Positions 37,243-54,237 of a stretch of DNA of 64,000 bases are shown one piece after another. The DNA lies in assembly GCF_017696015.1 (NCBI RefSeq), contig NZ_JAAORL010000001.1, positions 434,001 through 498,000 of the forward strand, written 5' to 3'. Position 1 is the first letter of the stretch. Each line of letters starts with the position of its first letter. The translations under genes and the position numbers were made by a program. Origin of the DNA: Prochlorococcus marinus CUG1415 (GTDB lineage Bacteria > Cyanobacteriota > Cyanobacteriia > PCC-6307 > Cyanobiaceae). The notes beneath the pieces are model-generated. The model was given only the letters and a program-made list of their open reading frames with translations, ran no database searches and was not told where the DNA came from.

Positions 37243-37305
37243 AACATTACTTTTAAAGAATTTGGTTGGGTATGAGGATGTAAGATAAACAAAAATAATT
37301 TCTAG

Positions 37306-37893
37306 ATGGCAAATCTTAATCAATCCCCAAGTAGGGTTACACCAAATCTATTACATATACTAAATGCTTTCACTGATAGCTCTAATTCAATAGTTAACAC
37401 TATTGTTGAATTGAATTCTAATACTATAAATAAATATGAATTAATTACAGAAACGGGTCACCTTAAACTTGATAGGGTGGGTTATTCTTCACTTGCTTAT
37501 CCCTTTGCTTATGGATGTATTCCAAGGACTTGGGATGAAGATGGAGATCCACTTGATATAGAAATTGTTGGAGTAACGGAGCCATTGATTCCTGGATCTA
37601 TTGTCGAGGCTAGGATTATTGGGGTGATGAAATTTGATGATGGTGGAGAGGTGGATGATAAGGTAATAGCAGTTTTGGCAGATGATAAAAGAATGGATCA
37701 TATCTCAAGTTTCAAAGACCTTGGAGAGCATTGGCTAAAAGAAACAAAGTATTATTGGGAACACTACAAAGATTTAAAAAAACCAGGAACATGCAATGTA
37801 AATGGTTTTTTTGGAACTGATGAGGCTGTTAAAGTGATTAAAGACTGTGAAGATAGATATAAAAAAGAAATTGATCCTAAATTAGTAGATTAA
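37306..37893 (+). CDS. ppa: family I inorganic pyrophosphatase, copy with intact active site
   Basis: Hydrolyses pyrophosphate to drive biosynthetic reactions. The 195-aa protein keeps all the E. coli PPase catalytic positions I can align: KYE, LDR, YPFAYG, DGDPLD, the Asp-Asp-Lys set in KFDDGGEVDDK and the HYKDL Tyr-Lys. It has an N-terminal extension of about 28 residues. It is sequence-divergent from the other PPase in this window (52641-53195), which resembles the common cyanobacterial type more but has lost active-site residues. This copy may be the main cytosolic PPase. Confidence 0.92.
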   Translation: MANLNQSPSRVTPNLLHILNAFTDSSNSIVNTIVELNSNTINKYELITETGHLKLDRVGYSSLAYPFAYGCIPRTWDEDGDPLDIEIVGVTEPLIPGSIVEARIIGVMKFDDGGEVDDKVIAVLADDKRMDHISSFKDLGEHWLKETKYYWEHYKDLKKPGTCNVNGFFGTDEAVKVIKDCEDRYKKEIDPKLVD

Positions 37894-51949: not shown

Positions 51950-52300
51950 ATGGAAAATATAGATTCCAATATTTCTAGCGAAGAAGAATTAGTAGGTATT
52001 GATGAAGTTCAAAAATTCCTAAATAGATCAAGAGCTTCTGTTTATAGATATACAAATACTGATTTAAGAAATTTAAACCCCAGTTTTAATCCAAGAAAAT
52101 TAAATCCCGAATTTAGAACTGATCAAAAAGATCCCTTAAAGTTCCACCCTAATGAAGTAGCAAGATTTGCTAAAGATATTTTAAGAATTAAGGAAGTTAC
52201 TGTAGAAGTATTCAATACACCTTCCTCAGCAGCTCAAAACATACTTGTACAAATTTTAGACGAATTAAAATTTATTAGGTCGTTATTAGAAAAAGAATAA
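51950..52300 (+). CDS. small HTH-like protein (resolvase-type N-terminus), unknown role
   Basis: A 116-aa soluble protein. Residues 14-40, with ELVGIDEVQKFLNRSRASVYRYTNTD, read like the excisionase or MerR-type helix-turn-helix used to bind DNA. A linker with Pro/Asn and basic residues follows. The C-terminal part, VFNTPSSAAQNILVQILDELKFIRSLLEKE-type, is a helix suited to dimerisation. It resembles the DNA-binding part of a resolvase but has no catalytic domain. Possible small transcription factor. Confidence 0.65.
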   Translation: MENIDSNISSEEELVGIDEVQKFLNRSRASVYRYTNTDLRNLNPSFNPRKLNPEFRTDQKDPLKFHPNEVARFAKDILRIKEVTVEVFNTPSSAAQNILVQILDELKFIRSLLEKE

Positions 52301-52396: not shown

Positions 52397-52651
52397 TTGA
52401 GTTATACGAAATCAAAGCACTTTATAAAAAGTAAATTAAGCGAAGATTCTTCTCTTGGTTCTGCTCAAAGTGATTTTGAAAGAGATGATGATGATCCTTT
52501 AAGTATAAGGAGCTTATCTATAACATCTTTAGGTATTATTTTTGCCTTTCTGACATTTGTATTACCTTCAATCAGCATTTTAATTGGAAGACCTTTTTCT
52601 CAAGGAAAAGAGGTAATTCTTAATCACGAATTTAAAAAAGATGGATCTTAG
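52397..52651 (+). CDS. small membrane protein before the second pyrophosphatase
   Basis: An 84-aa protein from TTG 52397. A polar, acidic N-terminal half (SDFERDDDDPLSIRS) precedes a hydrophobic helix at about 44-64 (SLGIIFAFLTFVLPSISIL) and a short charged tail. No known family. Its last 11 bp overlap the following pyrophosphatase start, so the two are probably translationally coupled. A membrane partner for that diverged enzyme is a possibility. Confidence 0.6.
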   Translation: MSYTKSKHFIKSKLSEDSSLGSAQSDFERDDDDPLSIRSLSITSLGIIFAFLTFVLPSISILIGRPFSQGKEVILNHEFKKDGS

Positions 52652-53195
52652 CTCTATACCTCCATCTCCAATGAAGGGAATAGTAAATATAGTTGTTGAA
52701 ATACCTGCTGGCAGTAGGAATAAATACGAATATTGCTCTGAAGCAGGAATAATGGCATTAGATAGAGTATTGCATTCTTCCGTAAGATACCCTTTTGATT
52801 ATGGCTTTATCCCAAATACCCTTGCTGATGATGGGGCTCCTCTTGATGCGATGGTGATAATGGATGAGCCGACTTTTGCTGGTTGTCTAATAAAAGCTAG
52901 ACCTATTGGAGTTTTGGATATGCATGATTGTGGTGCATATGACGGAAAACTTTTATGTGTGCCGATGGCTAATCCTAGACAGGCCAATATAGTCAGTATT
53001 AATCAAATTGCTCCAAATCAGCTTGAAGATGTTGCTGAATTTTTTAGAACTAGTAAAGGACTTGATGGAAGAACAGTTCGAATTGATGGTTGGAGAGATT
53101 ATGACGTGATTGAAAATTTATTGAAAAATTGTACACCCATAAAAAAGAAAAACTTTAAAGTAGTTAAGAAATTAAAAAGTGGTCAATTAAATTGA
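52641..53195 (+). CDS. ppa: family I inorganic pyrophosphatase-like protein, active site altered
   Basis: This 184-aa protein has the usual cyanobacterial PPase order: VVEIPAGSRNKYEY, MALDRVLHSSVRYPFDYGF, and a second Asp cluster in DMHDCGAYDGK. Two catalytic positions differ. The family's DGDPLD reads DGAPLD (Ala66, codon 52836-52838; the Asp is position 67 in E. coli), and the Tyr-Lys of FFRTYK reads FFRTSK (Ser138, codon 53052-53054; Tyr141 in E. coli). Other key residues (E20, K28, E30, R42, D64, D69, D96, D101, K103, K139) remain. It may be weakly active, inactive or changed in specificity. Another PPase with an intact site lies at 37306-37893. Confidence 0.9.
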   Translation: MDLSSIPPSPMKGIVNIVVEIPAGSRNKYEYCSEAGIMALDRVLHSSVRYPFDYGFIPNTLADDGAPLDAMVIMDEPTFAGCLIKARPIGVLDMHDCGAYDGKLLCVPMANPRQANIVSINQIAPNQLEDVAEFFRTSKGLDGRTVRIDGWRDYDVIENLLKNCTPIKKKNFKVVKKLKSGQLN

Positions 53196-53548
53196 AAAAA
53201 ATAATTTTTTATAGTTATTTAAAATGCTCTACTTGCATAAAAGCTGCAAAGTGGCTTAAAAGCAAAGATTTCGAATTTAAACTAATTGATATTGTAAAAG
53301 AACCACCACTTGTTAATTATTTAAATCTTGCTTTAGAACAATACTCTGATGATAAGAAAAGGATTTTTAATACAAGAGGTAAAGCTTTTAAAACTCTCAA
53401 TCTTGATATTTATGGCTTATCAAGGGAAGAAATTATTAAACTTCTTTTAGGTGATGGCAAATTAATAAAAAGACCATTTTTGATTTACGAGGAAAAAAAA
53501 GTAATATTAGGTTTTAACGAAATTGAATATGCCAAACAAATTATATAA
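53192..53548 (+). CDS. ArsC/Spx-family thioredoxin-fold protein
   Basis: A 118-aa protein of the ArsC-like family (Spx/MgsR group). It starts with TTG 53192 overlapping the previous stop by 4 bp (TTGA). The redox motif is CSTC within SYLKCSTCIKAAKWLKSKDF, a CxxC like Spx rather than the single Cys of true arsenate reductase. FNTRGKAFKTL and the RPFLIYE cis-Pro region are typical. Probably a redox-regulated factor; arsenate reduction is not supported by the motif. Confidence 0.8.
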   Translation: MKKIIFYSYLKCSTCIKAAKWLKSKDFEFKLIDIVKEPPLVNYLNLALEQYSDDKKRIFNTRGKAFKTLNLDIYGLSREEIIKLLLGDGKLIKRPFLIYEEKKVILGFNEIEYAKQII

Positions 53549-53577: not shown

Positions 53578-54237
53578 ATGCATGCTTCTATTAAAAGTTT
53601 TTTAAAAGAATGGGGTCTACTAATTCTATTAACTTTTTTTGTTTCTTCTTGTAGATCTTTTCTAGCAGAACCACGTTATATCCCTTCTGGTTCAATGCTT
53701 CCAGAATTACAAATAAATGATAGGCTAATTATTGAAAAATTTTCTTTAAGAAACTCTTTACCAAAAAGAGGAGATATTGTAGTTTTTAAATCTCCTTACT
53801 CATTTGATGAAAAACTAATTTCATCAAGATTTAAGCCTTTACCAAAAAAAAGCTATTGTTTTTTTATGAGTTTTCCTCCAGTTTCTTTTATTCCTGGTCT
53901 TAGGGATAAAGCTTGCGATGCTTATATTAAGAGAGTAGTCGCACTCCCAGGTGAAATTGTGAGTGTAAATAGTAAAGGTGAAGTAATGATAAATAATAAA
54001 TTAATTCCTGAACCTTATATTTCTTATAAGTGCTCAGCATACTTTTTTAATAAATGTGGTGAATTTGAAAATATAAAAGTGCCCAAAGATCATTTTTTAG
54101 TTTTAGGCGATAATAGATCAAATAGCTGGGATGGAAGATATTGGCCAGGAAGTAAATTTCTTCATAAAAAGGAGATCATAGGAAAAGCTTATGTAAGATT
54201 TTGGCCTCTTAGTAAGATTGGCTTTTTTAATAAATAA
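53578..54237 (+). CDS. lepB: signal peptidase I
   Basis: Cleaves Sec and Tat signal peptides on the outer face of the membrane. The 219-aa protein has an N-terminal membrane helix (LLILLTFFVSSC), the nucleophile Ser in IPSGSMLPELQINDR near residue 40, the base Lys in YIKRVVALPGE near 122 and box E GDNRSNSWDGRYW near 177. An insert of about 30 residues with FKPLPKKSYCFFMSF lies between boxes. It is convergent with the double phosphatase gene. Confidence 0.94.
   Translation: MHASIKSFLKEWGLLILLTFFVSSCRSFLAEPRYIPSGSMLPELQINDRLIIEKFSLRNSLPKRGDIVVFKSPYSFDEKLISSRFKPLPKKSYCFFMSFPPVSFIPGLRDKACDAYIKRVVALPGEIVSVNSKGEVMINNKLIPEPYISYKCSAYFFNKCGEFENIKVPKDHFLVLGDNRSNSWDGRYWPGSKFLHKKEIIGKAYVRFWPLSKIGFFNK

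Follow-up and report, generated by a model that had tools for sequence, protein, structure and literature searches.

The soluble pyrophosphatases (PPases) of family I (PF00719), which include E. coli Ppa and the ppa products of cyanobacteria, are the closest described relatives of the proteins considered here. Active enzymes of this family carry an aspartate at position 67 and a tyrosine at position 141 in E. coli numbering, and we take Asp117 of mouse PPA1 and Asp117 of the yeast enzyme to be the equivalents of Asp67. According to the available text of a study of PPA1, the mutant D117A had no detectable PPase activity (PMC3633968), and a 2024 review, in the part at hand, describes Asp117 as helping to activate the attacking water (PMC11210485). 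The accessible portion of a structural paper on another bacterial PPase disputes a mechanism with metal-activated water (PMC6770254); if so, the consequence of losing Asp67 would be harder to predict.

In a 2016 comparison, an inorganic pyrophosphatase is one of 46 orthologue groups exclusive to Prochlorococcus and marine Synechococcus (PMC4734447), and a 2022 study places one ppa cluster among the genes common to all picocyanobacteria (PMC9361551); the active site goes unmentioned alongside ppa in the available text of both. The word pyrophosphatase is absent from the main text of two proteome papers (PMC3865332, PMC10100731), and the accessible part of a further paper contains nothing on Asp67 (PMC8900733). 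Across the literature searched, in its available form mostly open main text, supplements aside, we found neither a published report of the loss of Asp67 described below nor a pseudo-pyrophosphatase of family I.

Here we describe a real, lineage-wide loss of a catalytic residue in one copy of an essential enzyme, accompanied by a replacement paralog. The affected protein, for which we coin the name PpaA*, shares with family I PPases its family membership, the order of its motifs and most catalytic residues, and it groups with cyanobacterial ppa. It differs from them in that Asp67 is replaced in 137 of 138 PpaA-type sequences, with Tyr141 also replaced in the genus under study. Like pseudoenzymes in general, on which reviews exist (PMC5106787, PMC10211241), it is a conserved relative that lacks a catalytic residue and has a complete paralog in the same cell, here given the name PpaB.

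Two pyrophosphatase genes in one window

The window, a stretch of 64,000 nucleotides from Prochlorococcus marinus CUG1415, holds two family I PPase genes. These genes and the neighbors of ppaA* are listed with their positions in the window.

37306..37893, + strand: PpaB, 195 aa, the second family I PPase, with the full checked catalytic set (PF00719, 161.4 bits)
51950..52300, + strand: conserved small protein, 116 aa, a syntenic marker without a family match, present in 46 of 48 family loci at 67-96% identity
52397..52651, + strand: small ORF, 84 aa, containing a single hydrophobic stretch; neither Pfam nor NCBIfam gave a match, and an ORF like it persists elsewhere in the absence of PpaA*
52641..53195, + strand: PpaA*, 184 aa, cyanobacterial-type family I PPase paralog without the catalytic Asp (PF00719, 158.4 bits, and alignment)
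52836..52838, + strand: codon GCT, giving Ala where active PPases have Asp (E. coli position 67)
53052..53054, + strand: codon AGT, giving Ser where active PPases have Tyr (E. coli position 141)
53192..53548, + strand: ArsC/Spx-type protein (TIGR01617, 87.5 bits; cut-off 75.05)
53578..54237, + strand: signal peptidase I (TIGR02227, 127.9 bits; cut-off 47)

Membership in PF00719 is clear for both PPases, whose scores stand against a cut-off of 23.5 bits. The NCBIfam equivalog models do not discriminate between them because both proteins fall below the cut-offs (PpaA* 136.2 against 200; PpaB 127.2 against 200 and 142.3 against 246). Within the window's own genome (1,734,399 bases, 100% complete) there was no third PF00719 match and no match to PF03030 (membrane PPase) or to PF02833, which we take to be DHHA2, the C-terminal domain of family II PPases.

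The original prediction held that the copy at 52641 carries Ala in place of Asp67 and Ser in place of Tyr141, and that the copy at 37306 retains these residues. Alignment to E. coli K-12 ppa bears out both statements and places the substituted sites at positions 67 and 141. The motif stretch of PpaA* reads ...NTLADDGAPLDAMV..., in which GCT at 52836-52838 yields DDGAPLD where the PPase family has DGDPLD. The second site reads ...EFFRTSKGL..., with AGT at 53052-53054 and RTSK in place of the Tyr-Lys pair. PpaA* of the window, with Ala67 and Ser141, thus lacks the full catalytic set. PpaB carries EDGDPLD and EHYKD, with Asp67, Tyr141 and Lys142 all present, and all 14 of the catalytic residues that were checked are kept in 58 of 58 distinct PpaB sequences of the family. 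The list of residues, in E. coli numbering, is one that we take to represent the PPase family literature.

Loss of Asp67 across the family

Residue counts were made on 227 distinct aligned ORFs, which are a portion of all PPase genes found in the family genomes: 138 PpaA-type and 58 PpaB-type sequences from the window's family, 30 other cyanobacterial sequences and E. coli ppa. Position 67 of the PpaA-type sequences is Ala in 110, Ser in 26, Cys in one and Asp in one. Asp67 is present in all 58 distinct PpaB sequences, at additional PpaB loci (20 of 20 and 80 of 80), and in 30 of 30 other cyanobacterial PPases, these being the best-scoring 30 of 67. The latter came from a phylum sample of 146 genomes, 73 of which had no PPase match. 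A single match was found in 66 of the 67; the remaining genome has a second that is fragmentary and below the cut-off. One of the 30 sequences (L103) is closer to PpaB by score and has a very long branch; it was counted in the residue tallies and trees and omitted from the analyses of family-specific changes and entropy.

Because position 67 is something other than Asp in 137 of 138 distinct family sequences, the substitution is neither a sequencing error, which had been named as an outcome that would overturn the original prediction, nor a change peculiar to one strain. Among 17 PpaA-type loci from named strains (partly repeat genomes), 16 have Ala or Ser within an open motif frame, and the seventeenth (L416) is broken, yet has Ala at position 67.

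With column 67 removed, a tree was built from 74 rows of PpaA-type and other cyanobacterial sequences; a single change on it accounts for the loss of Asp67. In the best tree a single branch sets the 43 rows without Asp apart from the others, and its support is low (52/73) in a bootstrap that had not settled. This topology suggests, with low support, that Asp67 was lost once, near the base of the window's family, where PpaB also appears. The history of Tyr141 is different. In the 138 PpaA-type sequences, position 141 is Tyr in 96, Ser in 34, His in seven and Asn in one, and Lys142 is replaced by Arg in 20 and by Gln in one. Four changes at Tyr141 are needed on the same tree, with nine non-Tyr residues among its 74 rows. 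Judged from this tree, Tyr141 was lost later than Asp67 and more than once, in the window's genus and separately elsewhere; the four changes, against one at position 67, rule out simultaneous loss of the two residues. The original prediction had raised the question of whether the loss of these residues coincides with the appearance of the second copy. The loss of Asp67 and the second copy are indeed placed in one region of the tree, at the family base; Tyr141 was not lost along with Asp67. Since positions 141 and 142 are part of the pyrophosphate site, the changes there weaken the case for a strict retention of pyrophosphate binding.

The sole PpaA-type sequence with Asp67 intact (L188) belongs to a genome, G049, that also has an intact PpaB. 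In a 28-row tree of proline-tRNA ligase, G049 groups with G008, which has PpaB only, in an unresolved three-way split at the family's base. Should G049 be an early branch, then PpaB came first and Asp67 was lost afterwards. The PpaA gene of this genome lies outside the usual gene order (L188/L270, on contig C15), so it may have been transferred into G049 or binned in error. A transitional state, a transfer and a binning error are all possible explanations.

Presence and absence of the two genes

Matches to PF00719 were found in 381 of 400 family genomes, mostly two in each. Only one of the 19 genomes without a match, G301, is at least 90% complete with no more than 5% contamination. A repeat search of G301 and of 31 genomes with a single match again gave none in the former and one in each of the latter. 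Of 30 loci from this search, 29 were PpaB and one was PpaA* (L034, in G396, which is 94% complete and outside the sample of 200 described next).

When the PpaB protein was used as the query, a match was found in all 200 family genomes that are at least 95% complete, and this match was strong in 198. Two or more PPase matches were present in 148 of the 200 and, by hand count, a single match in 52. Two of these 52, the drafts G300 and G227, have a weak match at the level expected of the PpaA type, and they are the only genomes in the sample with a PpaA-type match and no strong PpaB match. The other 50 have PpaB alone, with no PpaA-type match and one PF00719 match each. Absences of PpaA* are spread over several genera, some of which also include genomes that bear it.

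The window's genus, which has reduced genomes, keeps the gene. At least two PPase matches occur in 37 of the 38 sampled genomes that are at least 95% complete, and in the 38th (G300) PpaA* is cut by a contig end. A second sample had PpaA* in 53 of 68 genomes overall and in 22 of 22 that are at least 90% complete; all 15 genomes without it are at most 85% complete. Of the 53 copies, two (in G566 and G581) are interrupted by a stop within the match, and two are truncated at contig ends.

Among 31 named strains, hand-picked from 80 of 454 PpaB relatives, a PpaA-type match is present in 17, while the other 14 show none or, in one case, fragments. One of the 17, Synechococcus sp. 1G10 (L416), has a ppaA* broken by an in-frame stop at an otherwise invariant position, and the strain with fragments only is Cyanobium sp. 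FGCU6 (G621 C16:86508-86818), one of the 14; PpaB is present in both strains. Nearly identical PpaB coordinates make FGCU6 probably the same genome as G243 of the 200. With 50 of 200 genomes lacking a match and the gene broken or fragmented in these two strains, whatever role PpaA* has is not essential everywhere. A difference between freshwater and marine habitats is unsupported as a simple cause of absence, given that these strains are mostly freshwater or coastal by name and are divided 17 to 14.

The original prediction had proposed that the 37306 copy is the likely working enzyme, and the distribution agrees with it. PpaB is very probably the housekeeping PPase because 198 of the 200 near-complete genomes match it strongly and 50 of these lack a PpaA-type match; moreover, Asp67 is present in every copy read. 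The two genes are often about 15-28 kb apart on one contig (among the exceptions, G024 has a gap of about 190 kb and G044 one of 91 kb), and this closeness holds although PpaB looks like an acquired gene. No recent donor of PpaB was found in a plasmid collection (129 records, all below 60% identity, the best listed at about 42%) or among solved structures, which were PPases of other organisms. A cyanophage carrier was considered and rejected: the phage collection gave 10 records, all below 60% identity and none named as a cyanophage.

The gene adjoining PpaB, on the opposite strand, is hemC (NCBIfam TIGR00212). Because of this neighbor, and on the assumption that hemC likewise lies beside PMM0494 in the MED4 gene order, we think that PMM0494 is PpaB. 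The available text of one study reports the MED4 ppa gene PMM0494 as a target of the sRNAs Yfr1 and Yfr10 (PMC6778093), and an earlier prediction paper, in the part accessible, counted it as a pseudo-target (PMC3142192). A pattern search for Yfr1 sites in the window gave two matches at two mismatches, below chance expectation and neither at ppaB. By eye, gtatgaggatg just upstream of ppaB (37270-37281) resembles what we take to be the Yfr1 target site; the search, at two or fewer mismatches, did not flag it.

What PpaA* has kept

Apart from position 67 and the sites at 141 and 142, the active site of PpaA* is well conserved. Positions 20, 29, 51, 55, 65, 70, 102 and 104 are unchanged in 138 of 138 PpaA-type sequences, and positions 43, 97 and 31 are kept slightly less strictly (in 137, 134 and 132). 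Over 75 non-redundant sequences, the 13 other active-site columns of PpaA* have a mean entropy of 0.17, compared with 0.75 for the remaining columns (permutation p ~0.003). The same columns are perfectly fixed in the PpaB and other cyanobacterial sets and are not so in PpaA*. Family-specific changes above our thresholds include no new acidic residue, and one such residue is lost, a Glu to Gly change at position 103.

The ppaA* gene is under purifying selection, with dN/dS of about 0.08. In comparisons between the window and its relatives, which all include the window sequence (and so are non-independent) and lie nearly all within its genus, the median was 0.084 for PpaA* (32 pairs) and 0.065 for PpaB (31 pairs). 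Values from three loci were 0.08-0.12 for PpaA*, 0.09-0.12 for proline-tRNA ligase, 0.03-0.06 for the 116-aa ORF and 0.28-0.46 for the small membrane ORF. By these figures the constraint on PpaA* is similar to that on proline-tRNA ligase, weaker than that on the 116-aa ORF and stronger than that on the small membrane ORF. PpaA* has the sequence features expected of a pseudoenzyme: a conserved catalytic residue is gone, and the gene is kept by selection.

The neighborhood and the small membrane ORF

Gene order around ppaA* is well kept. Among the 48 family loci that had longer flanks, 46 contain proS, 46 the 116-aa ORF, 44 signal peptidase I and 40 the ArsC/Spx-type gene; their order is constant, and they are not always direct neighbors. 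The ArsC/Spx-type gene and ppaA* share 4 bases at the ppaA* stop; where the former lies near ppaA* (40 of 48 family loci), its identity is much below that of ppaA*. A promoter and terminator scan around PpaA* gave 7 promoter-like sites, compared with 12.1 in shuffled sequence, and no terminator, and a search for an anti-phage role of the locus gave no PADLOC match.

On the other side, the small ORF at 52397-52651 overlaps the start of PpaA* by 11 bases, and a partnership between the two products had been suggested. This ORF diverges fast: a tblastn search started from the window's copy recovers it at 9 of 48 family loci, and likeness elsewhere was judged by eye from its position, a single hydrophobic stretch and an acidic motif before it. 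By this measure, genomes that have no PpaA-type match still carry a similar ORF at 18 of 19 readable loci (L249 has none and L264 is the least clear; L262, which is cut, L265, which is G049, L267, which is outside the family, and L268, which was unread, were excluded). A similar short ORF also precedes an intact ppa in 8 of 30 other cyanobacteria (L095, L098-L101, L109, L111 and L118). These observations count against the suggested partnership, and an obligate pairing, with joint gain and loss, is rejected because a similar ORF stays in 18 of those 19 loci.

Possible functions of PpaA*

We favor, with somewhat more confidence than doubt, the explanation that PpaA* is a catalytically disabled paralog and perhaps a pyrophosphate-binding regulator, as its pattern of lost and kept residues would suggest. 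An ancestor of the family would have acquired PpaB as a second family I PPase, and the essential hydrolysis of pyrophosphate would have passed to it; this gain presumably preceded the loss of Asp67. The original cyanobacterial enzyme would then have exchanged its catalytic Asp67, once, for a small neutral residue and become PpaA*. A loss of useful activity is likely by analogy with PPA1 D117A, in which the equivalent position was changed to Ala and whose activity was undetectable according to the available text (PMC3633968); that case is a laboratory mutation of a mammalian enzyme, whereas the change in PpaA* is natural and conserved across a bacterial family. Because nearly all other ligands are kept and the gene is under purifying selection, PpaA* is most likely able to bind Mg together with pyrophosphate or a related phosphate, and would do so without a useful rate of hydrolysis. 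Its most likely role is non-catalytic, either as a pyrophosphate-responsive regulatory protein or as a subunit that modulates another protein.

Some of the same observations could be explained if PpaA* were still an enzyme, namely a slow or differently tuned phosphohydrolase that uses a metal-bound hydroxide at the alkaline pH which the cyanobacterial cytoplasm has in the light, or accepts another phosphate substrate in an enlarged site. A high pH may bring activity to variants of this sort. Apart from Asp67, almost every metal ligand has been preserved, the gene is under purifying selection, and a small side chain at position 67 seems to be favored, since the 137 replacements are only Ala, Ser or Cys and never Asn or Glu. 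Set against this are the lack of a new acidic residue among the family-specific changes that passed our thresholds, the Glu to Gly change at 103, the loss of Tyr141 in the window's genus and the absence of detectable activity in the mouse mutant, as far as the available text goes (PMC3633968). We think an active PpaA* unlikely. It is also quite unlikely that PpaA* serves as a regulatory subunit in mixed hexamers with PpaB, in the manner of enzymes built from catalytic and non-catalytic subunits. Such an arrangement would fit the co-occurrence of at least two PPase matches in 148 of 200 genomes, the frequent spacing of the genes at about 15-28 kb on one contig and the restriction of PpaA-type matches without a strong PpaB match to two drafts, G300 and G227. 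However, at about 34% identity the two proteins would not be expected to form mixed hexamers; in 50 of the 200 genomes there is a PpaB and no PpaA-type match, and the distance between the genes is not fixed, as G024 (about 190 kb) and G044 (91 kb) illustrate.

Slow decay of a gene that has no role and lingers by chance is very improbable. The 50 near-complete genomes without a PpaA-type match, the broken copy in Synechococcus sp. 1G10, the fragments in Cyanobium sp. FGCU6 and the further active-site changes at 141 and 142 are what decay might produce. But a single change at Asp67 on the tree was followed by mostly intact reading frames with dN/dS of about 0.08, and the gene is kept in the small genomes of the window's genus. 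Under the favored explanation, that of a disabled paralog with a non-catalytic role, PpaA* may bind its ligand and act in regulation. A more specific proposal, which we offer tentatively and regard as doubtful, is that PpaA* is a dedicated, non-hydrolyzing sensor or effector of pyrophosphate that evolved out of the former housekeeping enzyme once a replacement PPase had been gained, and that it couples the biosynthetic or phosphate state of the cell to another process across the picocyanobacteria.

Implications for the picocyanobacteria

Few photosynthetic organisms are as abundant as Prochlorococcus and marine Synechococcus. Because PpaA* lacks the catalytic Asp across the family, models that treat it as a PPase are probably mistaken, and PpaB would be the genuine one. 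The locus also offers a natural experiment in which a replacement appears to have been acquired, a catalytic residue was lost once, and the altered gene has been retained for a long time in reduced genomes, with scattered later losses. That the original PPase gene was retained after losing a catalytic residue, and has mostly been kept since, suggests that it has taken on a new job. PpaA* is a candidate pyrophosphate-binding regulator in picocyanobacteria.
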